26,312 bases of DNA from a virus. The DNA is taken from positions 1-26,312 of IMG/VR virus record IMGVR_UViG_3300033143_001034, one strand, 5' to 3'. Shown here piece by piece: positions 8,251 to 26,312 of this stretch. The position numbers and the translations under genes were made by a program. Below the pieces are notes generated by a model. The model made no database searches. It saw only the letters and a list, made by a program, of their open reading frames with translations, and had not been told where the DNA came from. Each line of letters begins with the position of its first letter. Positions within the stretch are counted from its first letter, which is position 1.

Positions 8251-9036
8251 TTATTTATTCTTATTATCTATTTGTACTGATGTTTGATAGCCAAACTGAT
8301 CTTGTATTTCTTTAAAAGCATACAGTACAGCTTTGTCTACTATTTCATCATGAAAATTCTTGTGAATGTCACAATTTACTAAGGCTGATGTAGCCGGAGC
8401 AACTGTAACTTTATCATCAATATGTATATAAGTACCAAGGCATACTCTATCTGGTTGCTTAATATAATTCAGTTGAACTGATGTTATACTAAATTGGGGC
8501 ACTCCTGCGTAGTTTGTTGTATCAAAATAGATACTATAAAGGTCAGCATTAGCTGTCGAAACAAGAGTACTTCTTCCAAAGTTAGCATGTACTCTACTCC
8601 AATCGAAATTAGGCTCATTAAACGTATTTTTTCTATCGTCTATTTGCCATTCTTTGTGGTCGATAGTTTTAGCACAATCATTTTTATCTATTATTATTCT
8701 AGCAGAAGTAAGAAATAAATAGGGATAAGTTAAATCCCTTAATCTTATTTCATATTTACCACTGCCAAGACTAACAGGAGTTAAAGCCGGTTGTACTGGG
8801 TCCTTGATATGTAAAGTCATTAGATTACTTATACGCTCTTGATTTGTTTCAAAACCTGCTTTCTTAGGTTGATCTCCTCCAAGAGGATAACCAAAACCAT
8901 AACGTTCTTTTACCCAAGCTTGTATAGCTCTATTAAGATAAGCATCCTTCTCATTATCATAAAAGTCTGCTCTATCTTGAGATGCTACACGATCTAATCT
9001 TAAGTCAAATTCGTAATGCATTTCATCTATAAGCAT
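8251..9036 (-). CDS. Head-tail connector (adaptor/neck ring) protein
   Basis: A 261-aa protein. The N-terminus (residues about 5-45) has the helical pattern of phage head-tail adaptors: a hydrophobic/charged helix, then D-A-Y-L-N-R-A-I-Q-A-W-V-K-E-R-Y. This Y-L-N-x-A/G-x-x-x-(F/W)-(V/I)-x-x-R-Y signature recurs in ring proteins that dock under the portal in podovirus-like and crAss-like phages. A central beta part follows (K-Y-E-I-R-L-R-D-L-x-Y-P-Y near 93-105), and a C-terminal helix (F-H-D-E-I-V-D-K-A-V-L-Y-A-F-K-E-I, about 229-245) of the kind also seen in that family. Its place two genes after the major capsid gene agrees. I rate the connector assignment as likely; which ring it forms is unknown. 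Confidence 0.65.
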   Translation of the reverse strand: MLIDEMHYEFDLRLDRVASQDRADFYDNEKDAYLNRAIQAWVKERYGFGYPLGGDQPKKAGFETNQERISNLMTLHIKDPVQPALTPVSLGSGKYEIRLRDLTYPYLFLTSARIIIDKNDCAKTIDHKEWQIDDRKNTFNEPNFDWSRVHANFGRSTLVSTANADLYSIYFDTTNYAGVPQFSITSVQLNYIKQPDRVCLGTYIHIDDKVTVAPATSALVNCDIHKNFHDEIVDKAVLYAFKEIQDQFGYQTSVQIDNKNK

Positions 9037-10178: not shown

Positions 10179-10214
10179 AAATAAATGTATGAGGAGAATG
10201 ATATCTCCTCATAC
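10179..10214 (-). terminator. Stem-loop immediately after the major capsid gene, probable partial terminator
   Basis: On the minus strand a perfect 11-bp stem (GTATGAGGAGA, 10214-10204, with TCTCCTCATAC, 10197-10187) has a 6-nt loop and is followed by ATTTATTT (10186-10179). The stem is strong but the T-run is broken by A residues, so it would probably stop only part of the transcription, or protect the 3' end of capsid mRNA. This would give more capsid message than downstream neck and fibre message. Confidence 0.65.
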
Positions 10215-10260: not shown

Positions 10261-11841
10261 TTATGCTATGTTCAAGAAAATAGCACCGCATCTAGAAACA
10301 TCAGCAATCATAAGACCTGCAGATTTTTCTTTAATAAGTGAATATCCTGAGATACCACCTGCTAATCCATATCCACCATCAGTAATAGGTAGTCCTGATT
10401 TAGGATCCCACTTACCTTTATGTGAAATGTCATAGTCACAATATTGTTCCTTAACCATTGAAATGTTAGGGTCACTTAATCCTGTACCTTGTTGCTTAGT
10501 AGTTCCAAAGTCTAAGATATCTGCTCTCCATGAATCAATAGTATAATTAGGGAATACTGGGTGCATTCTTGGTTGGAAGTAACGGTTATCATAACTTGGG
10601 TTAATCATAACTTGTACCTCCACGATGAATCCTTTGTATGAAGCAAAGTAAGCACCGTAATCCATGTGATGATAATCTGAACCTTTACGAATAAAGTGAG
10701 TATCTAATGTTAGGAATGTAGCTGAATCAGCTTTTACCATTGCATCAAACATCTCAGCAAATTTAATTCCGCAAGATAAAACAATCTTAGCATCACCTCT
10801 ATTTCTTTTATCTTTCAATATAGCAGTAAACCAATCATTCAATTGTGAAAGAGTTAGGTTACCATTATGTTGTAGTACATTACCAGCTTCTAGTTGCTCA
10901 CGCAATCCTGAACCTGTAGTAACTGTAAAGCCTTCTCTTGACTTAATGTAAGATGAAGCACGTCCTAAGACTAGTGCATCTTCTACGTCAGAGAAAATAC
11001 GATTATGCATTTCTGCTTCAGCCATTGATAAGAAGTTAGTCCATTTAACTGGATTACCTTTTTCATCTTGTGACATAAAAGGAATACGTAGTTGATTAAC
11101 ATACTTACCGTAGTATTCATCTCCATATTTGCCTTCGTCTGCACAGTTTTTAGCTTTACGAGCTGCACGGTCAGATAATTCAAACTTAACAGCAAATTGA
11201 CCTAGTTGACCTTCAGATTCGAAGATAGTTGCAAATTGAAATCCACCATAATCTTGGTTAGATTCAGAAGCAACAGCACTAGATACTTTGCAAAATTCCA
11301 TATTCTCTTGAATTAATTCAGGAGGGAAGAATTCAGCTGGATTATCAGTTACTAATTGTACTGTATATATATATTCATTTACGCCAAGTTCTAATGGCTC
11401 TTCATCCATTACACGTAGACGATATGCATTGTCCTCTCCTTGAATGATATCAGGAAGTTGGAACCATGGTTTGTCTAATACAATTTGAAATGGTTGTTGG
11501 TTAAGACCTGGTCTTGGGTCAGTATTGATTGTTTGAGTTACACGTAGTTTTTGGTACATGTCTCCAGATAACCTCCAGCGATATATATGGTTCGTTAACA
11601 TTTTAACGTTACCTTTAGCTTCAGTCATACCAATCATTGGCTTATCGTGATACATATCAGTAGCAGAGAATACTCTAGCATATCCCATATTAATATTATG
11701 GGGCTGATCGATACCAAAAGCCGCGTGCAAGTGCTCAGACAATACTTCTCCACGTACTCCTAAACCAGGAGTTATACGAGTTGGTTTACGTCCAAATGAT
11801 ACTTGCGAATTAAAAAAGTTAGTGTTGCCTTGATGACTCAT
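10261..11841 (-). CDS. Major capsid protein
   Basis: A 526-aa protein with the size, composition and genome place of the HK97-fold major capsid protein of crAss-like and related Bacteroidota phages: portal, then scaffold, then this gene. The N-terminal segment (S-H-Q-G-N-T-N-F-F-N-S-Q, then F-G-R-K-P-T-R) would be the flexible N-arm. The centre (residues about 215-300) has a long charged helix-rich stretch ending in A-E-M-H-N-R-I-F-S-D-V-E-D-A-L-V-L-G, compatible with the spine helix and P-domain. The C-terminal half contains A-Y-F-A-S-Y-K-G-F-I-V-E-V and H-P-V-F-P-N-Y-T, strand-like. It is preceded by a 56-bp leader and followed by a strong stem-loop, consistent with high expression. I find no maturation protease in the window. 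The call rests mainly on context; no fold search was possible. Confidence 0.82.
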   Translation of the reverse strand: MSHQGNTNFFNSQVSFGRKPTRITPGLGVRGEVLSEHLHAAFGIDQPHNINMGYARVFSATDMYHDKPMIGMTEAKGNVKMLTNHIYRWRLSGDMYQKLRVTQTINTDPRPGLNQQPFQIVLDKPWFQLPDIIQGEDNAYRLRVMDEEPLELGVNEYIYTVQLVTDNPAEFFPPELIQENMEFCKVSSAVASESNQDYGGFQFATIFESEGQLGQFAVKFELSDRAARKAKNCADEGKYGDEYYGKYVNQLRIPFMSQDEKGNPVKWTNFLSMAEAEMHNRIFSDVEDALVLGRASSYIKSREGFTVTTGSGLREQLEAGNVLQHNGNLTLSQLNDWFTAILKDKRNRGDAKIVLSCGIKFAEMFDAMVKADSATFLTLDTHFIRKGSDYHHMDYGAYFASYKGFIVEVQVMINPSYDNRYFQPRMHPVFPNYTIDSWRADILDFGTTKQQGTGLSDPNISMVKEQYCDYDISHKGKWDPKSGLPITDGGYGLAGGISGYSLIKEKSAGLMIADVSRCGAIFLNIA

Positions 11842-11897: not shown

Positions 11898-13247
11898 TTA
11901 CATAAACCAGTTCCTATTTACATCTGTTACTCTAGGTTGTTTTACATTTCCTTTTTGTTGAGGATCAACATTACCCATTGTAGTTCTAGACATATTACTC
12001 TTATTTTGTAACCTTTGTACTATTTTATTTAAAGTAGATTGAGGTATTTCCTCAGTATTTGCTTCTCCAAACGTACTAGTCTCTAAATTAAATTTTGAAA
12101 TAAAATCTAAAAACACTTGAAAAAGCACAGGGTTATTAAAAATAATTTCCTGTTTATATTGCCATAAAGGCATTTCTTGTCCATTTTCTAATGTAACAAA
12201 AGAAGCTTCTCTTCTTACTGTTGCTTTTTTACCTTCGGACCATTTACGTTTATTAAGACTATCAATAAATACATGATTCCAATTATTAAGATCTTGCTGA
12301 AGTTGTAAATCAGCTTGCTCTTGTTGTTGCATTAATGCTAAAGTTTTTTGTTCTTCTAAACTAGCTTTATGTTGTGCTATTTGAACAAAGTGAGCTTTAG
12401 CGATTTCTGCTTCACGTCTGAGTGTTAAATTCTCTGCTAACCTTTCAATTTGAGCAGGTACATTTTCTATAATCTTTCTATCTCTATTATCACTTGGATC
12501 TAATCCATCTGTATGATATAATTTTACAATAGCTCTTTGTGCTCTTTCTGAAGAAATATTGTAAGTAGCAAAATCAAATTCTTCCTTTAGTATATTTTGC
12601 ATTTTAGGAAGATCTGTAAAATTTTTACCATAGTAACCATAATCAAATAATTGTAACATTAATGGATCATGTGCTACTTGATTTCTAACAAAGTCAAGGG
12701 CTTCATTCCTTTGTGCTGCTAGTGTATCATTCTTATACATTGCTAATGTATCTAAATCTAATCTACTATAATCTACATTCTCTGGTAAACGAATCATATC
12801 GAATTCCTCGAGGATATTAAATGCCAAAAGATAAGGATCTTCTCTATTTATTTGATTGCTATCTTCACGTTCTTGTTGCATATCATGCGGTAATCGTGGA
12901 GATTGCTGATTCAAATTCTGTTGTGGAGTTTTTGTACCACTATCTTGGAAGTCAGGATCTAATGCTGATGGTTGTACTTCAAGAGTTTTCTTATGTGCAT
13001 CTTCCCAATGGTCTCTTTCTGGTTCTCTAGGTTGACGTACAGCAGGAGTACTTCGTGGTTGTGATTGTACATGTTGTGGCGTATTTACTTGTAGGCCTCC
13101 TCCTGTATTCATTGTTGGAGTAGACGTAGGAAGATTTTGTGCAGCTGCTTCCATAGCTTTATTTTCATTAGCAATAATGCTATCCACATCAAAGTTATCA
13201 CCCCAAGAATTACTTGCTATTTGACTTAAGTCTGGTTTGTTTGCCAT
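11898..13247 (-). CDS. Scaffold-like capsid assembly protein
   Basis: A 449-aa protein between the chaperonin gene (11 bp upstream) and the major capsid gene (56 bp downstream), the usual slot for a scaffolding protein. Residues about 30-135 are low-complexity and rich in Gln, Pro, Ser and Thr, so probably disordered. Residues 135-260 are helical, and about 265-328 form a Gln/Glu/Ala-rich coiled coil (H-K-A-S-L-E-E-Q-K-T, then M-Q-Q-Q-E-Q-A-D-L-Q). The C-terminus is basic (Q-Q-K-G-N-V-K-Q-P-R-V near the end), as expected for the part of a scaffold that binds capsid subunits. Disordered start, coiled-coil middle and basic end are the standard scaffold layout. Sequence identity to a known scaffold was not checked. 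A minor virion protein is the main alternative. Confidence 0.68.
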   Translation of the reverse strand: MANKPDLSQIASNSWGDNFDVDSIIANENKAMEAAAQNLPTSTPTMNTGGGLQVNTPQHVQSQPRSTPAVRQPREPERDHWEDAHKKTLEVQPSALDPDFQDSGTKTPQQNLNQQSPRLPHDMQQEREDSNQINREDPYLLAFNILEEFDMIRLPENVDYSRLDLDTLAMYKNDTLAAQRNEALDFVRNQVAHDPLMLQLFDYGYYGKNFTDLPKMQNILKEEFDFATYNISSERAQRAIVKLYHTDGLDPSDNRDRKIIENVPAQIERLAENLTLRREAEIAKAHFVQIAQHKASLEEQKTLALMQQQEQADLQLQQDLNNWNHVFIDSLNKRKWSEGKKATVRREASFVTLENGQEMPLWQYKQEIIFNNPVLFQVFLDFISKFNLETSTFGEANTEEIPQSTLNKIVQRLQNKSNMSRTTMGNVDPQQKGNVKQPRVTDVNRNWFM

Positions 13248-13258
13248 TTTTTAATTTT

Positions 13259-14941
13259 TTAAATATTATGTATTGCCTTCTCAATAGACAAGATGCTTTT
13301 AGCTACAGATACTGCGTTAACTAGTGAATCTATTAATACTCCAGTTGGGTCATAAATAGTATAATCATCTAGTCCATAGAATTCATTAGTGATTACATTA
13401 TAACCTAGTTCATTATCTCTTATTTTAGGATATATTTCCTCCATATTTATATCAGAGTTTTTACACAACTGCTCGAATGGTTCTAATAAACTATTAACTA
13501 GAATACTATATCCTTCTCCAAGATGAGACTTTCTAAGTTCCTCAGCAGTTTTAATAAATGTATATCCACCACCAATACTGATACCTCTATCAATAGCAGC
13601 TTTAACAGCTTCTGCTGCATCGTCTATTCTATCTTTTTTCTCATTCATCTCTACTTCAGTTGGGGCACCTACATATATTACAGCTACACCTCCTGCTAAT
13701 GTTGCTAGACGTCTTTTATAGTAGACTTTATCGTTTTCACTTATGTCTTCTTCTGCAAGTCTAGTTTTCGTTATTTCTATAAGTTGATCTACAATAGGAG
13801 TTTCAGCAAACCCTCCTAAAATAGAAGTATAATCTTCATCTACTATAACTTCTTCTGCAAATCCAATTTGACCTGGTTCCTCAGCAGTACTTCTACTAGC
13901 ACTAGTTAATGCAGCTATATCATTCATAATTTCTGTCTTACGATCTCCAAAACCATCATGTTCTGTTATCATAATATTAAATTGTTCTGGATGCATAATC
14001 TTATTGTTAATTAAAGTCTGCAATACTACAGGCTCTATGTCATTAACTATAAATAGTATAGGATTATTCTTAACTAACCTACCATGTTCATCTCCATTAA
14101 CTATACTAATATATGGTTGTAAATCAGATATACTTCTAATAGTGTCATCAAATAATACTATGTATACTTTACTAGCTTTCCATTCCATTCTAACATGATC
14201 AGATAAAAATTGTGGAGCATAGAACCCTTTATTATATTTTATGCCTTTAACCTTATCAATTCTATTCTTTGTTTTATGAGACGACTTAACTTCAATATGT
14301 CCATACACTCCTATATCTTGTATAATGTCATATATAAAATTACCTATCTCTGTATTACTAGCTGATACAGTTGCAATATGCAATAGCTTTTCAAAGTTAG
14401 CTTCTATATTTAATGAGTGCTTTTTAATATACGTTATAGCCATGTCTTTAGCTGCATCTATTTCTTTAGATAACTCATAAAAACTCTTACCTTTTGCCAT
14501 AACTTTAAACCCCTCATTAATAATATATTGTGCTAAAATCAATGTAGTTGTTGTACCATCTCCACTAGACTTAACTGTTTTCTCTGCTGCCTCTCTAACT
14601 ATCTCAATAGCCATTCTTTCAATTGGATCATCAGAAGTTACCTGATTAGCTGCTGTTACACCATCTTTAGTAATTCTAGGTCTTTGTGTTCGTCTATCAT
14701 TAAACAGAACATTTTTTCCCTTAGCTCCTAATGTTACTTTAACAGTATCTGCTAACTTATTAACTCCTTTAATAATCTTTTCCTTAACAGTCATCTTCAT
14801 AGCTTCTTCTTTATATACTGTAAAATAAGCTTCCTCTTTATCTTGAAGTGTACTATTTAATTTTTTTGCAGATTTATAAAAAGGATGTGGAGGCATTCCA
14901 TTATCTTTAAGTACATTATCTAATTCTTCTTTACTTTTCAT
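13259..14941 (-). CDS. groEL: Phage-encoded group I chaperonin (GroEL/Hsp60)
   Basis: A 560-aa ATP-dependent folding chaperonin. Key residues by hand alignment to E. coli GroEL: the nucleotide loop VKVTLGAKGKN (67-77), TKDG with D93 (E. coli D52), GDGTTT at 127-132 (D87), D441 in RIDDA (D398, which activates water), GGG 457-459, and D531 in DPT (D495). The apical mark GFGDRK is at 330-335 and L-A-G-G-V-A-V-I-x-V-G-A at 415-426. All three domains are present, so it should assemble and hydrolyse ATP. About 48 residues precede the normal GroEL start (internal Met at 48 and 50 could be alternative starts), and the C-terminal GGM tail is missing. It lies between portal and scaffold genes, 11 bp before the latter, with no terminator, so is co-expressed with its likely clients. 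No GroES gene is seen. Chaperonins are known in several phages (for example Pseudomonas phage EL). Confidence 0.95.
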   Translation of the reverse strand: MKSKEELDNVLKDNGMPPHPFYKSAKKLNSTLQDKEEAYFTVYKEEAMKMTVKEKIIKGVNKLADTVKVTLGAKGKNVLFNDRRTQRPRITKDGVTAANQVTSDDPIERMAIEIVREAAEKTVKSSGDGTTTTLILAQYIINEGFKVMAKGKSFYELSKEIDAAKDMAITYIKKHSLNIEANFEKLLHIATVSASNTEIGNFIYDIIQDIGVYGHIEVKSSHKTKNRIDKVKGIKYNKGFYAPQFLSDHVRMEWKASKVYIVLFDDTIRSISDLQPYISIVNGDEHGRLVKNNPILFIVNDIEPVVLQTLINNKIMHPEQFNIMITEHDGFGDRKTEIMNDIAALTSASRSTAEEPGQIGFAEEVIVDEDYTSILGGFAETPIVDQLIEITKTRLAEEDISENDKVYYKRRLATLAGGVAVIYVGAPTEVEMNEKKDRIDDAAEAVKAAIDRGISIGGGYTFIKTAEELRKSHLGEGYSILVNSLLEPFEQLCKNSDINMEEIYPKIRDNELGYNVITNEFYGLDDYTIYDPTGVLIDSLVNAVSVAKSILSIEKAIHNI

Positions 14942-14996: not shown

Positions 14997-17564
14997 CTAC
15001 TTCTTGGTAGACTTATCTTTTGCTGCTTTTGCTTTTATTTTTTCTAGTTTCTCTTTATTTTTAGCTTCAATCTTTTTTAAGTTAATAGCTTGTTGTTGAT
15101 TACCTGTTTCTTGACGTTCTTTTGCAGATAGCTCACTATCTCTTTGAGCTATACGTGCATCTTCTTGTGAAAGTTTATGACGTTCAATATTAAGTTTTTC
15201 TTGATCATTGAATACTTGATTTCTAAATTGTTCAATTTCAAGAACATCTGGCATACCATCTCTATCCCTATCTTTTTCAGGATCCCAAGCCATAGAATTA
15301 ATTTGTGCTTTAAGAACATCGAATTCGCCTTTAAGATTAATTTCATCCATACGTTGTTTTCTATCAGCTTCAATTTGCTCTTGTTGTTGTTTTTGCATTT
15401 CTTGCTCATGTTGTTGTTGAGCTTCTTGAGCTTCTTGTTCTCTTTTCTCAATTCCTTTTTCAATACCTTTAAGTTCTTCTTTAAATTCTGCTAAGTTATC
15501 AGTATCTAACATAGTTAAAAGAGTAGAAAAATTAATCTTATCATTTTGTATAAGTGCTTGCATAAACCCTTTAGCTTCTTGTAATGTTTGATGAGATCTA
15601 GTATTATTTCCTATACGTATAGAATACTCATCTTCTAAGGAGATTAAATCTAAATCAATTAATGCTATTTCATCATCAGATAATATTTGACGTACAAACC
15701 CTGTTTGCCCATCCATCGTTTTAACAGCTGTCTCACATAACGATTGTAATACACTTTGCCATAACATCTCATGACCTGCAAATATACTATTCGTAATATT
15801 CATAGATTGTGCCATGTCTCGTTGATTATCTGTAACATTAGTACTAGCTCCCGTTTGTGCTAAACGTTGATCTGATACCCCTGCAGATACTTTCATTTGT
15901 TGTTCTACAAATTCTAATAAATTAGTATAGTGTGTAAGTTGCTGTGAATTCGATAAGTCTAACCTTTCTGCAGGTTTAGTACTATAAGCTACATTAGTGC
16001 CTTGTGTATGTGCCAATGGATTATAAGGTAATACCCCATGATCTATACCTATTTGAAGGGCTCTTTCATAACCTACTCCTTTATCCATCATAAGGATATT
16101 AAGTAGTTGTATAACTCCTTTATCTTGTGTAATAAGTTTTAACCATTTAGACATAATTATATAGTATAGTTTCTGCCATGGTTTAATTCTATCCATTACA
16201 CAAACACTAAATGCGTTTCTATTGCCATATATAAAACCATGAATAGGTAACTTAGTTTTATAAGGGTTTAACATAGATTGATAAGCGTTCTCATGATCTG
16301 TAGTAGATGTCCATTCCCATTTAGATTTACTTTTAGAAAACATATGTGGTTTATAATTAACTTTCTTTGCTCTATCTGGAATAGCATACTCTTCATCTAC
16401 AAAAGTAGTAGCTTCTTTTCCATACTCATTTATATAAGTTAATTTTCCTATTCTCCTTTGAGATTTCCAATACATAGTGTACACTACACAATAGCTTTCA
16501 TAGTTATGTTTAGATTTATCTGAAGCATAAAGTCCATCTGATAATACATTAGTAGAACCATAAGAGGGAATAGTAGATAATGGATGTTGATAAGTATATT
16601 CATACTTTTTAATATTATCCCAATGTGAAGGAGATTCACCATTCTTTGAATGAAACTTAGCATCTGTCCCAAAGACTTTGCTATTATATTGTTTCAGTCT
16701 ATCTATATCTTTTTTATTAAGATTTTCTCCATACTTATCTAATACATCAGTAACTGTAAGTTCTTCTTTGTACCCTACATAATCTGAATCTTGTATAAAA
16801 GGAGTATCTGCAGATTTATGGAAAAATAGATTAAGTGCATTAATTTGTTTAACATAAGGTACATTAGTAGTTTCATCTACACAAACTTCTACAGCTTCCA
16901 CTCCTGCAATTAATGCGTCTTCAAACGTTTCATTTTTAAGCCATTTCAAATTCTGGTTAACAGCCATTGACTTTAATAGCTTATGAATTGTTTTTTCTTT
17001 TTTTGACTTATAATTTATATATTTACTTTCGATTTTTTCAGGATCAAGTAATTCAGCTTCTTTTCTATTAAATTCCTCTTGGGCTTGTTGTGTTACTTTT
17101 TCAACTTCTTCTGGCGGTGCTCCTTGAGTTTGTTCTTGAATCATTGCTTCTCCAATAGCTTGTTGGCGTTCTATTTCATTTGCTAACATACTATCCATAT
17201 AGTTACGATAATCACGTTCCTTAGCTCTAAGCATCTCATTAGTTGCTTTAGGTGATAAGTTAATTACTCCAAAGGACCAAGGCATTTTAGATTCTTCCCC
17301 TTTAAGCACCTCTATAATAGTATGAGTCTTATTGAATGGTTCTACAAACTTTTTACCTTCCCCTTTTTCTAAACCTAGTGTATCGCAATATTCTCTATAT
17401 TCTTCTTGTTCTATCTGATTATTCTTTAACCTATAGTTCTGCCATATACGATACCAGTCATTGCCGAATTCATCCACCCTAGATGCTATTGCATCTACTT
17501 GATTTGTTCTCCACGATTTATTTTTCTTGCTTGTAGCAAGTCTCTGTGGTTCAAATGCTATCAT
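14997..17564 (-). CDS. Portal protein (long crAss-like type) with C-terminal coiled coil and EF-hand-like loop
   Basis: At 855 aa this is far longer than classical portals, but near the size of portals in crAss-like phages. It lies directly after TerL (46 bp) and before the capsid genes. Residues about 30-300 begin with the helical N-R-L-K-type region (D-W-Y-R-I-W-Q-N-Y-R at 36-45) and F-V-E-P-F-N-K-T, typical for portal N-termini; 440-620 hold the clip/stem-like core, with I-H-G-F-I-Y-G-N-R-N and K-P-W-Q-K-L-Y-Y. Residues 695-850 are a long Q/E/K-rich coiled coil. Inside it, D765-R-D767-R-D769-G-M-P-D773-V-L-E776 fits the 12-residue EF-hand calcium loop exactly. The portal forms the dodecameric DNA gate at one vertex. 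The stop is TAG; reading through it would add only four codons, so there is no sign of stop recoding. Confidence 0.85.
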   Translation of the reverse strand: MIAFEPQRLATSKKNKSWRTNQVDAIASRVDEFGNDWYRIWQNYRLKNNQIEQEEYREYCDTLGLEKGEGKKFVEPFNKTHTIIEVLKGEESKMPWSFGVINLSPKATNEMLRAKERDYRNYMDSMLANEIERQQAIGEAMIQEQTQGAPPEEVEKVTQQAQEEFNRKEAELLDPEKIESKYINYKSKKEKTIHKLLKSMAVNQNLKWLKNETFEDALIAGVEAVEVCVDETTNVPYVKQINALNLFFHKSADTPFIQDSDYVGYKEELTVTDVLDKYGENLNKKDIDRLKQYNSKVFGTDAKFHSKNGESPSHWDNIKKYEYTYQHPLSTIPSYGSTNVLSDGLYASDKSKHNYESYCVVYTMYWKSQRRIGKLTYINEYGKEATTFVDEEYAIPDRAKKVNYKPHMFSKSKSKWEWTSTTDHENAYQSMLNPYKTKLPIHGFIYGNRNAFSVCVMDRIKPWQKLYYIIMSKWLKLITQDKGVIQLLNILMMDKGVGYERALQIGIDHGVLPYNPLAHTQGTNVAYSTKPAERLDLSNSQQLTHYTNLLEFVEQQMKVSAGVSDQRLAQTGASTNVTDNQRDMAQSMNITNSIFAGHEMLWQSVLQSLCETAVKTMDGQTGFVRQILSDDEIALIDLDLISLEDEYSIRIGNNTRSHQTLQEAKGFMQALIQNDKINFSTLLTMLDTDNLAEFKEELKGIEKGIEKREQEAQEAQQQHEQEMQKQQQEQIEADRKQRMDEINLKGEFDVLKAQINSMAWDPEKDRDRDGMPDVLEIEQFRNQVFNDQEKLNIERHKLSQEDARIAQRDSELSAKERQETGNQQQAINLKKIEAKNKEKLEKIKAKAAKDKSTKK

Positions 17565-17584: not shown

Positions 17585-17635
17585 TTAAATATCATGATCC
17601 CATGATATATTAAATATCATGTTCTTTCCATGATA
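17585..17635. repeat. Imperfect tandem repeat at the TerL/portal junction
   Basis: Two copies of about 23-26 bp (17610-17635 and 17585-17607) share TATCATGG and CATGATATTTAA on the minus strand and differ only in a short centre (AAAGAA versus GAT). The first copy encodes the last residues and stop of TerL; the second is non-coding, and its arms ATATCATG/CATGATAT form an 8-bp palindrome around GGAT just before the portal leader. It looks like a local duplication of the 3' end of terL. It might also be a protein binding site, but nothing shows this. Confidence 0.75.
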
Positions 17636-20111
17636 CATTATTTCTAGTGCTTCCATTACTTCTTTGACGTTCTTTATATACTGATTTCTCTTTAGACGAG
17701 CCATAGTTTCTTATAACCAAACCTTCCCAAAAATTCGAAACAGATCCTGGCCCTTCCATGTTCTTATTATATTCTAAGAAGTCTTCATTCCAATGCTCAT
17801 TAATTTGTATAATTGCACCCATCATTGCCATAACCGTATCAAAGTTACCTGTTCTATTATATGCAATAAGCTCTTCTATAAGAGCTCTATCTTCTAGTAG
17901 ATCTAAATTCCTAACTCCTTGAAGTTCAATAACCTCATCATTAGCATCAACTACTTTCTTATTACTTTGTCTAGTTAATAGCCATTCTAATACTAAATCT
18001 TCACCAATTTGTTTATGTCGTGAAGAGCCCATCGAATGTCCGTACTCTCGTAATAATGTCTTAGAATTTGGTAAATACTTCGATATAGTCATCTCTGGTT
18101 TAGACATCAATCTAGTAAGTTGTTTCTTTCTTATAAAGTATTGTAATATACCACCATCTCTATCATTTTCAAATGTAATCTTAGCATTATAATATTTGCT
18201 TAGTTTTAATAGTAATTCATGTACATGTTGTTGAGGTCGATCCTTAGCTCTACCACGATACGTACAAACAACTTTCTCTGCTCCGAAGTCATGTACAAAC
18301 TTTGGAGTCTTCATAACTATAATCGAAGTCAATGATTTACCTCCTGAAGTGTTCTGTCCAATAGGGTCAACACTTATAATATATGCTCCTTCTGGTACTC
18401 TACCAGATATCTTCATAGGAGCTTCGTATCTTAATAAACAACCTTCTCTATCTAAATTAGAGACTACTCGTTTATCTATAGGTTGTAATTTATTATCTAA
18501 GTCTACTTTAAAATATACATGTCCTCCTTGTTCTATTAACTCTCCTTTAACCCTTAACCCTTCGTAACCATGTCTAGACAAACGAATAGCTGAATCTCTA
18601 GCAAAAAGATCAGCTACTGGGAATATATTACCTTCAGGTGTTAAGAAAGCTTCACTAGGAGTTTTACAATACTGAGTTAAGTATTTATCATATTGATTCT
18701 TATCACCATTCTCTTGTTTAATACGACGTTCTTTATTAATATACATCTCTGCAACCCAAAACGTAGCATTGCCATTCTTATCAAGTGCTTCATAAGTAAC
18801 ATCTTCTATTACTATCTCAGCCCCAAAACAAGCCCACATCTCTGAAACAAACCATCCTGCTTGTTGGTCACTTACAGTATACTCATATGTGTTTTTAAAA
18901 GAAGCTAATTCAGCTGAGTCTGGTGAAGTAAATAATTCACTAAATCCATAAGAATGCCCTTTCTCGCCATTATCTTTTACCATCGATCCACCAGTACCAA
19001 AAATAATTGCGAGGCCCTTTATGATAGCACCTGGCTTTAATACTGGCCTAGTAAACTCCCAAGCATCTTTAAGTCGTTCAGTTTTACCTGCCTCTTCAAA
19101 ATATACTCTATCTGCACCTTGTCCTGCAGCTTTATCCGGTCTATTAGATAATGATACTGTAGATATTGTAGATAGTCTTCCACGTTTAGATGATGAATTC
19201 TTTGTACTCTGCAATCCAAATGTAAATGCTCCTGAGTCTTCTGTCATTGACATAGGTACATGCTTCCATCCACCATTAGTTCTTGGGTTACCTGGGTTCT
19301 TTCTACCGAATGGAGTATACTTTGTTAGCCAATCAACAATAACTATTGCCTTCTTAAAACACAAAGCAGCATCTCGACCAGTATCGGATGCTATCAGTAC
19401 ATTAGGTGGTGAAGAATATTTACTCTTCGGAAAAGCAGTAATCCAAACTGCACCAGATGCAGCTTTAAATGAGAATCCTTTACGGCGAGACTTAGCTACT
19501 ACGATACCTACTTTCTTATAACTTTGAGGTAACCCATAATTGCCTGGGCGTTCCCTTGCATCTATCTCTTTAAAAAAGTAATAGTCCATTGCTAGGAAAT
19601 CTGGGAAGTCTCTAACTCCTACTTCTTCCTTTTGCTCATTTCTTTGCATCTTATCGATTACACAATAGTTTAGAAAGAAATAAAATTCTCCACTAATTCT
19701 AACTCCACAAGGTTCCCCATCTATAATAGGTTCATAACCATTGATAATTCTTGTGAGTTCTTGTTTCCAAAAGTTTTTGTATGCTAAGGTTCCTTCGATG
19801 TATGGAGTATACGATGGTTTCATATTAGTACCTAGAGTTGCTTTCTTTGCAACATTAAATGCTATTGCAGCTGGAGCAAATATAGAACAGTCTTTAAAAT
19901 ATAAATAGTCCCAACAAGTATTAGCAACTGGATCTTTTAAGGATAACCTACTTATATCGCCATAAACCTTTTTAAAGCTAACTTCGTTAACTTCATCTGG
20001 AATAGCCCTTTTAATGTCATCATCTGTTACTAAATTAAATACTTTAGGATTAACCCATAACTTTTCTTTGGGTAAATGTAAAGTATTATTATTCGTTTTG
20101 GCTTTGCTCAT
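17610..20111 (-). CDS. terL: Terminase large subunit (packaging ATPase and nuclease)
   Basis: An 833-aa packaging motor protein. The N-terminal ATPase has the degenerate Walker A usual in terminases, A-K-S-R-R-K-G-F-S (206-214), and Walker B V-Y-F-E-E-A-G at 336-342 with catalytic Glu, then a coupling motif F-G-T-G-G at 371-375. The C-terminal RNase H-like nuclease has acidic residues at D582 (I-S-V-D-P-I-G), E648 (I-T-F-E-N-D) and D758 (N-F-D-T-V-M-A-M), the expected triad. Its length is at the upper end for the family but in line with crAss-like phages. The ATG overlaps the end of the upstream 224-aa gene by 23 bp, so the two are translationally coupled. It works with the portal at the packaging vertex to pump and cut DNA. 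Confidence 0.95.
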   Translation of the reverse strand: MSKAKTNNNTLHLPKEKLWVNPKVFNLVTDDDIKRAIPDEVNEVSFKKVYGDISRLSLKDPVANTCWDYLYFKDCSIFAPAAIAFNVAKKATLGTNMKPSYTPYIEGTLAYKNFWKQELTRIINGYEPIIDGEPCGVRISGEFYFFLNYCVIDKMQRNEQKEEVGVRDFPDFLAMDYYFFKEIDARERPGNYGLPQSYKKVGIVVAKSRRKGFSFKAASGAVWITAFPKSKYSSPPNVLIASDTGRDAALCFKKAIVIVDWLTKYTPFGRKNPGNPRTNGGWKHVPMSMTEDSGAFTFGLQSTKNSSSKRGRLSTISTVSLSNRPDKAAGQGADRVYFEEAGKTERLKDAWEFTRPVLKPGAIIKGLAIIFGTGGSMVKDNGEKGHSYGFSELFTSPDSAELASFKNTYEYTVSDQQAGWFVSEMWACFGAEIVIEDVTYEALDKNGNATFWVAEMYINKERRIKQENGDKNQYDKYLTQYCKTPSEAFLTPEGNIFPVADLFARDSAIRLSRHGYEGLRVKGELIEQGGHVYFKVDLDNKLQPIDKRVVSNLDREGCLLRYEAPMKISGRVPEGAYIISVDPIGQNTSGGKSLTSIIVMKTPKFVHDFGAEKVVCTYRGRAKDRPQQHVHELLLKLSKYYNAKITFENDRDGGILQYFIRKKQLTRLMSKPEMTISKYLPNSKTLLREYGHSMGSSRHKQIGEDLVLEWLLTRQSNKKVVDANDEVIELQGVRNLDLLEDRALIEELIAYNRTGNFDTVMAMMGAIIQINEHWNEDFLEYNKNMEGPGSVSNFWEGLVIRNYGSSKEKSVYKERQRSNGSTRNNVSWKEHDI

Positions 20112-22716: not shown

Positions 22717-23026
22717 TTTCTCGTTTTAAGGTTATTCTTTTATATTCTAGATTTTTTATTTCTTTTATCTTAGTTTCTAATAGTACAGCTTTTACAGCTG
22801 CTTTAGCTTCTAAAGTGTCTATTAGTTTACTATTGCTCTCCATAATCTCAAGTGCTTGACCTAATGACACATTCAACTCATCTATTTTAGCTTGATACTC
22901 TCTTGCATCTATTTCGCAATCAGGCTGAACAAAAAACCTTTTTTCTATTTGAGTCCATAATATTAAACTAAATACTGCTATAAATATTATTGCACCCACT
23001 AACTTAAGTATAGACTTATTTACCAT
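22628..23026 (-). CDS. Rz-like inner-membrane coiled-coil protein (i-spanin candidate)
   Basis: 132 aa counted from the ATG at 23026, which overlaps the end of the endolysin gene by 11 bp. An upstream ATG at 23134 would add 36 residues that are only an out-of-frame reading of the endolysin, so I reject it. Residues 6-25 are a single membrane helix (L-K-L-V-G-A-I-I-F-I-A-V-F-S-L-I-L-W), followed by a coiled coil at about 40-112 and a short tail. One N-terminal anchor plus a periplasmic coiled coil, directly after the endolysin, is the classic i-spanin (Rz) layout. Its downstream partner overlaps it by 89 bp. It would bridge to the outer membrane during the last step of lysis. The stop is TAG. 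Confidence 0.65.
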   Translation of the reverse strand: MVNKSILKLVGAIIFIAVFSLILWTQIEKRFFVQPDCEIDAREYQAKIDELNVSLGQALEIMESNSKLIDTLEAKAAVKAVLLETKIKEIKNLEYKRITLKRENEILLSQTIKHINVSPTYLDSLRRKHFGG

Positions 23027-23639
23027 AATTCTTATTAACGTTTTGTATTGATGTAAATATACTTTTAGATATAAGATCTTGAAATGTAGAAGACCATATA
23101 AGATCATAATCCTCTTTCTTATCCATAAAGCCACATTCTAATAAAATGAATGGACATTTAGATTTACTAATAATTGTAAACTTAGCTTCCTTATCTTCAC
23201 TAAGATTACCTGAACCTCTACCAAGTCTAGCTCTCAACGGAATAGTATCCTTAAATACATCAATAAACTCTTTAGCTATATAATCAGACTTAGTTTCACC
23301 AGGACTAGTAAAGATTTCCCAACCTGTACCCCCACCTGCATTAAAGTGAACTGATATCCCGTATACATTCTTATTAGTCTCATATATCTTATTTGCACGT
23401 CTTACCCGTTCTGATAATGATATATCTTCTAACTCTGGAGATATATGGTAATACGGCAATCTAGCATAGTCCATACGCTTAATACAGTTCTGTACTATCC
23501 ATCGATTAGCTACTCCCTCATATAATACTCCTTTATCCCAATTAGGACTTCTCTTGCCTTTTGTTTGATACTTGCCATCGATTGTTGAGCCATGGCCATT
23601 ATCCCATATTACTGATAGTTTCTTACTCATTTGCCTCAT
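23016..23639 (-). CDS. N-acetylmuramoyl-L-alanine amidase (Amidase_3 endolysin)
   Basis: A 207-aa endolysin of the Amidase_3 zinc amidase family, which cuts the bond between muramic acid and the stem peptide. Zinc ligands fit the pattern D-N-G-H-G (H16), E41 (in L-Y-E-G), and H98 (in I-S-V-H-F-N-A-G), with catalytic E168 in L-L-E-C-G-F-M. The length is that of a bare catalytic domain; there is no signal peptide and no wall-binding domain, so it needs a holin to reach the wall. Start: ATG 23639, or ATG 23630 (Met4, M-S-K-K-L-S), both overlapping the upstream gene by 17 and 8 bp; the second start gives a more usual N-terminus. It is followed by spanin-like genes, giving a standard lysis cassette. 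Confidence 0.9.
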   Translation of the reverse strand: MRQMSKKLSVIWDNGHGSTIDGKYQTKGKRSPNWDKGVLYEGVANRWIVQNCIKRMDYARLPYYHISPELEDISLSERVRRANKIYETNKNVYGISVHFNAGGGTGWEIFTSPGETKSDYIAKEFIDVFKDTIPLRARLGRGSGNLSEDKEAKFTIISKSKCPFILLECGFMDKKEDYDLIWSSTFQDLISKSIFTSIQNVNKNYGK

Positions 23640-23832
23640 TACACTTTTTAATTAATTCTTCTCTTTCTTTATCACTCATTAAGTAACCATAGTCTTCTAG
23701 TGCTTCTTCTAAAGTTAACTTCTTAGTGTATATCCACCCTTTATCTAAACCATGCTCTTTATTCCATAAAGCTATTTGATCTTCTCTAAATAATATCGGT
23801 GGAACTAATTCTATATCATTTTTCTTTTTCAT
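23623..23832 (-). CDS. Hypothetical small protein upstream of the endolysin
   Basis: A 69-aa soluble protein I do not recognise. It starts M-K-K-K-N-D-I-E-L and ends in a charged helical stretch (L-E-E-A-L-E-D-Y-G-Y; D-K-E-R-E-E-L-I-K-K-C). It overlaps the previous gene by 17 bp and the endolysin by 17 bp (or 8 bp if the later start is used), so it is clearly part of the coupled run. No domain or membrane segment is visible. Confidence 0.55.
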   Translation of the reverse strand: MKKKNDIELVPPILFREDQIALWNKEHGLDKGWIYTKKLTLEEALEDYGYLMSDKEREELIKKCNEANE

Positions 23833-24082
23833 CTTTCTTATATATTTTTAATAGCTCTTTAAGGAGTTCAAATTGATGACTATTAACTAATCTTATTAAA
23901 TTCTCTCTTTCAATATCTTCTATATCATCTAAAAGATTTATTACGGCCATGAAAACTTTTCTATCTTTCTCATACCAAATGTCCTCAAACCATTCTATTA
24001 GTTCAGTTTTACTTATTTTACCAGTGTATTTAGTTACATTACCTAACTGATTTCTAATCCCTGGATTACTCTTCTTTACCAT
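23816..24082 (-). CDS. Hypothetical small helical protein
   Basis: An 88-aa, Lys/Glu-rich, mainly helical protein I do not recognise (F-E-D-I-W-Y-E-K-D-R-K-V-F; V-I-N-L-L-D-D-I-E-D-I-E). It overlaps both neighbours by 17 bp and ends in TGA. The stretch K-I-S-K-T-E-L-I-E-W-F-E at about 22-33 is amphipathic. No motif suggests a function. It is part of the same coupled gene run as the endolysin. Confidence 0.5.
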   Translation of the reverse strand: MVKKSNPGIRNQLGNVTKYTGKISKTELIEWFEDIWYEKDRKVFMAVINLLDDIEDIERENLIRLVNSHQFELLKELLKIYKKDEKEK

Positions 24083-24329
24083 CTGTTTTTCTATTATTAC
24101 TAGGTGTTGCTATTATATGTATTTCTGTTCTAAAAGAACCAAAGTATTCATTTTTATATATCTTTACAATATCATATTTGATACTGTCGATATAAACTTC
24201 ATCTTTTTGTAAATCTACTTTTAGGATGTCTTTAGGGTGTTGTTTTAACACAAATCTTATTTCTCCAGTTTCTTCTAGCATATAAGATCTAATACTATCA
24301 AATCTTGGTATTTCCTTACTTATCTTCAT
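24066..24329 (-). CDS. Hypothetical small protein
   Basis: 87 aa from the ATG at 24329 (M-K-I-S-K-E-I-P-R-F-D). An ATG further upstream, at 24374, would add 15 strongly basic residues that are only the shifted-frame reading of the upstream gene's Lys/Glu tail, so the shorter start is preferred; it overlaps the upstream gene by 14 bp. The body is beta-rich (I-R-F-V-L-K-Q-H-P, D-E-V-Y-I-D-S-I-K-Y-D-I-V-K-I-Y). It is not a GroES: there is no mobile-loop or GroES-type motif. The function is unknown. Confidence 0.5.
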   Translation of the reverse strand: MKISKEIPRFDSIRSYMLEETGEIRFVLKQHPKDILKVDLQKDEVYIDSIKYDIVKIYKNEYFGSFRTEIHIIATPSNNRKTDGKEE

Positions 24330-24615
24330 CCTCTTCTTTTTTATGATTCTCCTTTTTATGATTCTCATATTCAACTCCTATATAGCAACCTGCCATTGAA
24401 CCAATAACATAACCTATAGCAATTATAATGTTTCCTTCTAATATAGCACCAATACCTATTGCTGTACTTACTAACCATATAAAAGTCATAAACCCTCCAA
24501 GTAATGCAGCATCTAATGCGTTACCTTCTACTATCTTAGTAATATTTATTGTTTTAAGAGCCATGTATACTAACTCAAAAACAGTTACTAATAGGAACTT
24601 AAATAATAACATCAT
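24316..24615 (-). CDS. Small membrane protein resembling the DUF5698 (UPF0316) membrane domain
   Basis: A 99-aa protein with three hydrophobic segments at about 2-20, 38-57 and 62-80, and a charged tail (K-K-E-N-H-K-K-E-E-D-E-D-K). The order F-E-L-V-Y-M-A-L-K-T-I, F-M-T-F-I-W-L-V-S, and A-I-G-Y-V-I-G-S-M-A-G-C-Y-I-G-V-E-Y-E resembles the N-terminal three-helix membrane domain of UPF0316/DUF5698 proteins, in which a G-x-x-x-G-x-Y-x-G-x-x-x-E motif closes the third helix. In cellular homologues a cytoplasmic domain (DUF2179) follows; here there is none. It overlaps its upstream neighbour by an ATGA. A membrane role in lysis (holin or antiholin) or host membrane change is possible but not shown. 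Confidence 0.6.
   Translation of the reverse strand: MMLLFKFLLVTVFELVYMALKTINITKIVEGNALDAALLGGFMTFIWLVSTAIGIGAILEGNIIIAIGYVIGSMAGCYIGVEYENHKKENHKKEEDEDK
24337..24366. repeat. 15-bp tandem repeat inside the membrane protein tail
   Basis: TTTTTTATGATTCTC (24337-24351) and CTTTTTATGATTCTC (24352-24366) are a head-to-tail duplication differing at one base. On the coding strand they give two copies of the pentapeptide E-N-H-K-K in the charged tail. It is probably a slippage-type duplication that adds charge without changing the frame. Confidence 0.75.
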
Positions 24616-25652: not shown

Positions 25653-26142
25653 TATTTATTTCTGTGAAATACATTAAAAACATTAAGTTTGATGCAGCAT
25701 GTGCTAAGTGACTTCGTCCAGATTCGTCGAAACGTTCCCCTTTCTTATAAGCCACTATATGTCTCATCATTGCTGCAAAGTATCTATTTTTTGCATTTGG
25801 AACTCTTTTCCAGTTATCATCACCATATGTGGTAGCACCATCTGTTAATACTTGTACTATTAACTCTATTGCTTCGAATGGCAATAAGTCCCATCTAAGC
25901 TTACCTTGATCGTCTTTACGTCCACATACTTCTAGTGATCCAAATGAACTACCATAGTAGGGATGATTAGTTATACCTGGAATGAAGTGTGCAGCAAAAT
26001 CAAAACCAAAGTCAGGGTTAGAGTCAGGCTCGAACCTACACCCATTTATAAGGCTTTTAATGTAAGCTTCCCAATTAGCATCTCTTTCATTCCTATTATC
26101 TCTATTATTCTTGTCATCTTTGTTATCTCCTTGTTTTCCCAT
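25606..26142 (-). CDS. dATP/dGTP diphosphohydrolase-like protein (DUF5664 family)
   Basis: A 178-aa protein with a polar, Asp/Asn-rich N-terminus (residues 1-22). Residues about 74-158 fit the DUF5664 domain: G-R-K-D-D-Q-G-K-L-R-W-D-L-L-P-F-E-A, then D-G-A-T-T-Y-G-D-D-N-W, R-Y-F-A-A-M-M-R-H-I, then G-E-R-F-D-E-S-G-R-S-H-L-A-H-A. Family members are all-alpha MazG-like nucleotide pyrophosphohydrolases that hydrolyse dNTPs to dNMPs, often found in phages. The conserved Glu, Asp and His residues of these segments would bind metal and nucleotide. It shares a one-base TAATG overlap with the gene before it and overlaps the putative sponge gene after it by 47 bp. A role in nucleotide-pool control is likely; the exact substrate is unknown. 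Confidence 0.8.
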   Translation of the reverse strand: MGKQGDNKDDKNNRDNRNERDANWEAYIKSLINGCRFEPDSNPDFGFDFAAHFIPGITNHPYYGSSFGSLEVCGRKDDQGKLRWDLLPFEAIELIVQVLTDGATTYGDDNWKRVPNAKNRYFAAMMRHIVAYKKGERFDESGRSHLAHAASNLMFLMYFTEINNEETNGKDIRKKGSK

Positions 26143-26312
26143 TATATCTTCTCTTTAGCTTTCTCTTTACGTTTAGGATCCCTTAGAATCCCAATTTGTT
26201 TAAGAATTGTTTTAAGTTCATTGAAGTCTAGTAATTGACCAGTAAATAGTCTTTCTACACTTCCAGTCACTGTTTCAAATATATCTACTCTTAAGTTCTT
26301 TGGATAGAAGAG
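26142..26312 (-). CDS. C-terminal fragment of an unknown gene (partial at right edge)
   Basis: An open frame enters from the right edge and runs 56 codons to a TAA at 26144-26142, sharing one base with the ATG of the DUF5664 gene. The visible tail reads R-V-D-I-F-E-T-V-T-G-S-V-E-R-L-F-T-G-Q-L, then a helical stretch and a strongly basic end (R-D-P-K-R-K-E-K-A-K-E-K-I). The one-base coupling and open frame support a real gene. Not enough is visible to assign a product. Confidence 0.6.
   Translation of the reverse strand, partial: LFYPKNLRVDIFETVTGSVERLFTGQLLDFNELKTILKQIGILRDPKRKEKAKEKI

Follow-up and report, generated by a model that had tools for sequence, protein, structure and literature searches.

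The window, by which we mean the whole stretch of 26,312 nucleotides that was analysed, part of a virus record in IMG/VR, carries at 13259..14941 on the minus strand an open reading frame that is intact from ATG to stop, with no internal stops, and encodes 560 aa. This frame matched Pfam Cpn60_TCP1 with 157.7 bits (cut-off 34.3) and phrog_5725 (chaperonin GroEL) with an E-value of 3.3e-110, and its top-scoring solved structures in the PDB were all group I chaperonins, far above those of group II. The AF2 model (mean pLDDT 84) displayed an ordered Cpn60 body preceded by 50 N-terminal residues of low confidence, and group I Cpn60s ranked first when this model was searched with Foldseek. On these matches we assign the frame to the group I chaperonins, chance being excluded, in agreement with an earlier note on this DNA that had announced a complete chaperonin of this group. 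Residues 1-50 form an extension absent from the relative L022 and from the second sub-clade of relatives; the extension may be lineage-specific, or the true start may be internal, Met47 and Met49 being possible. The protein has no GGM tail.

The genes of this region follow one another, from high to low coordinates, in the order endolysin (23016-23639), TerL, portal, GroEL, putative scaffold, major capsid protein (MCP), g363, ring protein (8251-9036, with a CrAss_Ring_3_4 match) and further virion genes. TerL (17610..20111, minus strand; phrog_6681, E 4e-98) is the first gene of the conserved head block. The portal gene directly before GroEL (14997..17564, minus strand) encodes 855 aa (99 kDa) and matches phrog_6547 (E 1e-75) and PF16510. 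Directly after GroEL comes the putative scaffold gene (11898..13247, minus strand; 449 aa, 52 kDa), followed by an MCP of crass type (10261..11841, minus strand; 526 aa, 59 kDa) that matches PF23898 Crass_capsid (E 9e-42) and phrog_11589. The portal-GroEL, GroEL-scaffold and scaffold-MCP gaps measure 55 bp, 11 bp (13248-13258) and 56 bp, the second being the distance that the earlier note had given. That note had placed the chaperonin between portal and scaffold: its portal is borne out by the family match, while its scaffold is a label taken from position, with no family match in the Pfam and PHROG searches and the same slot in all relatives. The window portal lacks exactly 90 bp relative to the otherwise near-identical contig L003, by micro-deletion or assembly collapse. 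Overlapping small late genes were also observed after the endolysin, at 23016-24082 and 24066-24615.

Between portal and MCP the terminator scan returned a single sense-strand candidate, a weak stem of 5 bp within the scaffold ORF, and no convincing terminator; this agrees with the earlier note, which had seen none between chaperonin and scaffold. The only strong sense-strand terminator of the scan is a hairpin with an 11-bp stem and a T-rich tail, directly 3' of MCP (10187..10214, minus strand), possibly the end of the head transcript; this hairpin was not found in L020 or L022. Sigma-70 promoter scans of the window gave chance-level results, and in this AT-rich genome terminator and promoter scans are weak evidence. 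We infer that GroEL is co-transcribed with portal, scaffold and MCP.

The window phage is crAss-like, with both PF23898 and PF25710 in the window and the order TerL-portal-MCP; an 87-kb relative, G001, adds the muzzle (crAss_MUZ) and Ring_1/2 proteins. Because identities to the closest named relatives are as low as about 30% for TerL, 24% for portal and 21-24% for MCP, we assign it to an uncultured and deep lineage of crass type. In four relatives (L101, L106, L127 and L082) the MCP and TerL genes are interrupted by inserts of 0.4-1.1 kb; those that keep the frame are taken for inteins and the others for introns or frameshifts, and such split genes fit the intron- and intein-rich crass groups already described (PMC7886860). 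The G001 loci L060-L064 encode a protein with an Acb2/Tad1 hairpin domain, a possible anti-defence sponge, and also contain a match to a host sigma70 decoy family and ORFs of 2566 and 4688 aa.

Conservation and descent of the phage GroEL

Relatives were collected from IMG/VR by scans with MCP, portal and GroEL queries, and profile HMMs served to read their gene order. In 29 contigs, corresponding to 17 portal clusters at 95% identity, GroEL is the gene next after portal, and the gene following GroEL is also visible in 26 of the 29. Seven contigs (5 clusters) from sister crAss-like lineages pass from portal to scaffold-MCP with no GroEL between, and no GroEL was found anywhere in the sister contigs G026 and G030 (59.6 and 83.5 kb); in another sister lineage, L096, GroEL lies upstream of TerL. 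In the portal tree the GroEL-after-portal state needs a single change (branch 95/92). As these gene orders have it, GroEL is fixed in the portal-scaffold slot and specific to one clade. Extra ORFs come and go beside the slot, in L020, L022 and L038. The earlier note had asked whether chaperonin and capsid genes co-occur across relatives, and would have counted a chaperonin far from the capsid genes against a dedicated capsid role: inside the clade GroEL always occupied this slot, which makes a dedicated role in the head the natural interpretation, and outside it this holds only in part, phi14:2, cr108_1 and cr111_1, like L096, carrying GroEL upstream of TerL.

The GroEL tree was built with the clade, 40 bacterial GroELs, one Salmonella GroEL and 25 other phage GroELs; it included AR9 but not the EL and OBP chaperonins. 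The clade was monophyletic (100/99, all bootstrap trees) on a stem of 1.83, outside the bacterial group, which favours a viral lineage in the question, raised by the note, of a grouping with viral or with Bacteroidota GroEL. Identity to the bacterial GroELs found is 32-37%, and the term 'host-like' used in that note is misleading. The phage GroELs of DAC16, LR756501 and L024 fell among bacterial ones, and the tree method is therefore able to detect host capture; a recent capture of a host groEL was considered for the window gene and ruled out by tree and identity. Within the clade, L021, then L022, then the window with L020 branch in the same order in the GroEL and portal trees, and pairwise GroEL identities correlate with those of TerL, portal, scaffold, MCP, g363 and ring (r 0.94-0.97). 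Between L041 and L042, dN/dS is 0.08 for GroEL, compared with 0.06 for portal, 0.09 for MCP and 0.12 for scaffold. At the level of sequence, these comparisons establish a single origin of the GroEL clade, its vertical descent and purifying selection. A tree of the C-terminal part placed the L096 GroEL, on long branches and with an SH-aLRT of 84, as possibly sister to the clade; a relocation of GroEL from before TerL to the portal-scaffold slot would fit this placement and is weakly suggested by it.

The ATP-site residues T30, K51, D52, D87, G88-T91, D398 and D495 are retained in all 16 of the 16 members compared, with rare Thr/Ser swaps. The apical surface is different. At nine groove positions, which we take to be the substrate- and GroES-binding residues of E. 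coli GroEL known from mutagenesis, the clade has on average 5.6 hydrophobic residues, against 7.9 in 80 bacterial GroELs. The V264 position is polar or charged in every clade member, K, E or Q stands at the V263 position in most members of the second sub-clade, and the L234 position is often polar; inter-ring residues are diverged as well. Judged from these alignments, the apical groove for GroES and clients is altered from the bacterial standard. Several clade GroELs carry intein-like in-frame insertions of about 300 aa (L045:1413-3836, L049:6079-8635, L082:4834-7419 and L122:2744-5002). Those of L045 and L049 sit in the ATP-binding loop (GDG|TTTT); the L045 insertion bears LAGLIDADG homing-endonuclease motifs, and the L049 GroEL is also frameshifted.

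A candidate co-chaperonin upstream of the head genes

The earlier note had reported no GroES in the window, and we found none: neither the window nor relatives of 66, 84, 87, 113 and 178 kb gave a Pfam Cpn10 match, even at an E-value of 10. In a control GroEL phage, G040, the same family was detected with E 3e-22. Near-identical repeats of 143 bp at the termini of the 178-kb contig (G034) suggest that it is near-complete. After these Pfam searches up to 178 kb we favoured the absence of any GroES, a reading that was dropped on the strength of more sensitive profiles and gene order, as follows. In named crass phages a diverged GroES-like gene lies beside an HU gene (50 records including crAss001, few of them also with GroEL), and a profile of these genes matched bacterial GroES at 96% in hhalign. 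This crass GroES profile pointed weakly (E 0.035) to a 244-aa ORF of G001 that adjoins an HU-like gene, an arrangement that matches the HU-GroES gene order of cr111_1 and crAss001.

When the 67 conserved ORF families of G001 were ranked, the 244-aa family came first against the crass GroES profile (E 4.6e-4, next 0.033) and also against a profile of bacterial and phage GroES (E 0.0046, next 0.042). The hhalign comparisons gave it 33-37% against crass GroES and 8% against bacterial GroES; it had no Pfam or PHROG match, and no similarity was obtained with the phi14:2 lid alone. AF2 modelled the candidate with low confidence (pLDDT 60), and the four best PDB matches of this model were GroES/Hsp10 (prob 0.66-0.90, E 0.05-0.17), no other match exceeding 0.1 among the matches listed. 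We consider that the 244-aa family is very probably a GroES-type protein. Homologues occur in L110, L111, G013 and G034, and also in the GroEL-less sisters L102, L132 and L126/L137, and the candidate is present in every relative extending far enough upstream; in relatives it lies 7-14 kb upstream, in the same late cluster. Its presumed mobile loop, located by alignment, reads IIL, IYI or IAV in the GroEL-less sisters and VDG, IDG or IDA in GroEL-carrying lineages. Other ORFs were considered as lids, namely those between portal and GroEL in L020 (130 aa), L022 (61 and 405 aa) and L038 (224 aa), and gave no GroES signal in the family search.

The candidate is known from relatives, the window ending before its expected position. 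At the window edge, 26142..26312 on the minus strand is the C-terminal end of a gene that is cut off there, as judged by eye from its 56-aa frame aligned with a G001 ORF. The G001 homologue (79242-79736) directly follows the lid candidate, and the candidate should therefore lie just beyond position 26312 in the window phage. Of the options that the earlier note had listed, the host co-chaperonin, another phage gene or none, the first and the last are probably wrong, since the diverged candidate encoded by the phage is expected one gene past the window edge.

Possible clients and partners of the phage chaperonin

GroEL was originally discovered through phage head assembly. For the present locus we favour, with moderate confidence, a private pair of GroEL and co-chaperonin that serves head assembly, with MCP as the likeliest client. 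One crAss-like lineage would have acquired a group I chaperonin long ago and fixed it in the head operon, where GroEL would be made together with portal, scaffold and MCP and would fold late virion proteins or prevent their aggregation. The late proteins captured by GroEL would be enclosed and folded with the phage's own lid, this partner probably being the strongly diverged GroES-like protein encoded 7-14 kb upstream. Since crass phages commonly have a lid gene and no GroEL gene, the lid is probably the older part, to which this clade added the barrel. Both the groove and the co-chaperonin have shifted from the bacterial standard, which suggests a private pair rather than the use of host GroES. 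Such a pair would give the phage independence from host GroEL/GroES. The presence of the lid candidate in GroEL-less sisters as well speaks against this reading, since the candidate may serve host GroEL.

As to clients, 59 kDa is close to the largest protein that an enclosed GroEL chamber accepts. MCP, which has this mass, would be the best main client: the 99-kDa portal exceeds what a standard chamber can hold, and an elongated shape is likely for the scaffold. The dedicated client among scaffold, MCP and portal that the earlier note had envisaged gains from the constant position of GroEL within the clade, portal (99 kDa) and scaffold (52 kDa) being poorer candidates than MCP. Against MCP, neighbouring genes need not be clients, and Vibrio phage SRILMA and other crass phages keep their GroEL elsewhere. 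A further-reaching version of the private pair, which we advance tentatively, is a two-part orthogonal chamber of GroEL and an ancestral lid, their contact surfaces reshaped for each other and no longer for host partners. Pointing this way are the different readings of the presumed mobile loop in GroEL-less sisters and in GroEL-carrying lineages, together with the polar turn of the V263/V264 pocket of the chaperonin. Equally tentative is the corollary that this lid was inherited from GroEL-less crAss-like ancestors, in which it would have capped host GroEL in the manner of gp31. If true, this would be a case from nature in which chaperonin and cochaperonin evolve, as a pair, a specificity of their own for a viral capsid protein.

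Foremost among the rival readings is a GroES-independent chaperonin of the kind found in EL, OBP and AR9, working as an ATP-driven holdase or folding ring, in which case the upstream GroES-like protein would be unrelated or would act on host GroEL. The loss of groove hydrophobics (5.6 of nine compared with 7.9 in bacteria), the polar or charged V264 position in every member and the absence of Cpn10 from contigs of up to 178 kb would all suit such a ring, and the EL and AR9 chaperonins do function without a lid (PMC7185714, PMC9598537). We nevertheless hold this reading to be rather unlikely in view of the GroES-like candidate present in every relative that is long enough upstream, and of AR9, which stands on its own long branch, apart from the clade, in the GroEL tree. 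A general late-phase chaperonin, to which the slot would bring timing and dose and whose clients would be tail, ring, fibre, endolysin or stressed host proteins, appears less probable still. Other phage GroELs are found beside DNA polymerase, before TerL or between tail genes, and those of EL and AR9 act on endolysin in vitro (PMC9598537), as a generalist might; the portal-scaffold slot, however, is fixed over deep divergence, though the extra ORFs around it vary. As for a captured host groEL without any phage role, a passenger or a decaying gene, phages do acquire such genes, DAC16, LR756501 and L024 being cases in point, but the tree and the signature of purifying selection largely refute it here: the viral lineage is deep and monophyletic with a long stem, dN/dS is low, the ATP site is kept and several members have inteins that leave the frame open across the ATP loop. 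We regard it as very improbable.

Among known systems, the folding of the T4 capsid protein gp23 needs GroEL and the phage lid gp31 (PMC3012670). The private pair proposed here would resemble it in that a chaperonin component specified by the phage acts on a capsid protein of HK97 fold, the client being deduced in our case from gene position and size. T4, however, supplies the lid only and uses host GroEL, whereas here the barrel is phage-encoded in the head operon and the lid is a candidate. The chaperonins EL gp146, OBP gp246 and AR9 gp228 are likewise phage-encoded and far from host GroEL (PMC7185714, PMC9598537), but they work without a lid, in giant phages, and the AR9 gene is not beside capsid genes. 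The Steigviridae phi14:2, cr108_1 and cr111_1, together with Dulem virus 41, resemble the clade in that they encode a GroEL of their own and, in the late block, a GroES-like gene; they differ in that their GroEL is located upstream of TerL and separated from portal by several genes, and in its weak or absent grouping with the clade. The flavophages elemo, immuto and Calle also carry a phage GroEL apart from host operons, but with a recognisable Cpn10 next to or near GroEL and neither gene in the capsid block. In SRILMA (L074, 4995-6575) GroEL lies inside the structural block, between the tail sheath and tail tube genes. Among marine Bacteroidetes phages, 36 environmental genomes grouping with phi38:1 and IAS virus likewise encode GroEL (Nishimura et al. 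2017, PMC5332604). GroEL genes in phages, including crass-type and marine Bacteroidetes phages, are thus already known. Within the open-licence literature, which is incomplete, we found neither a clade-wide GroEL held in the portal-scaffold slot nor the 244-aa lid family described, and chaperonins go unmentioned in the principal genomic survey of crAss-like phages.

The reasons for which certain phages encode a GroEL themselves are little understood, and a deep clade with GroEL in the head operon bears on this question. To our knowledge, the natural clients of the biochemically studied phage GroELs are not settled, and their genome positions vary. The GroEL-carrying clade and its GroEL-less sisters provide a natural contrast, useful for identifying the client and for following the passage from T4-style capping of host GroEL to a wholly phage-encoded chamber, and the clade offers testable, possibly host-orthogonal, chaperonin pairs. 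Some records filed as phage in the phage collection (AFYI01000007, AGRM01000005, OR848861, PQ520251 and OR846590) should not be counted as phage chaperonins: the Salmonella contigs among them are bacterial DNA with a host groEL, and the Listeria and Enterococcus records look bacterial, again with a host groEL.
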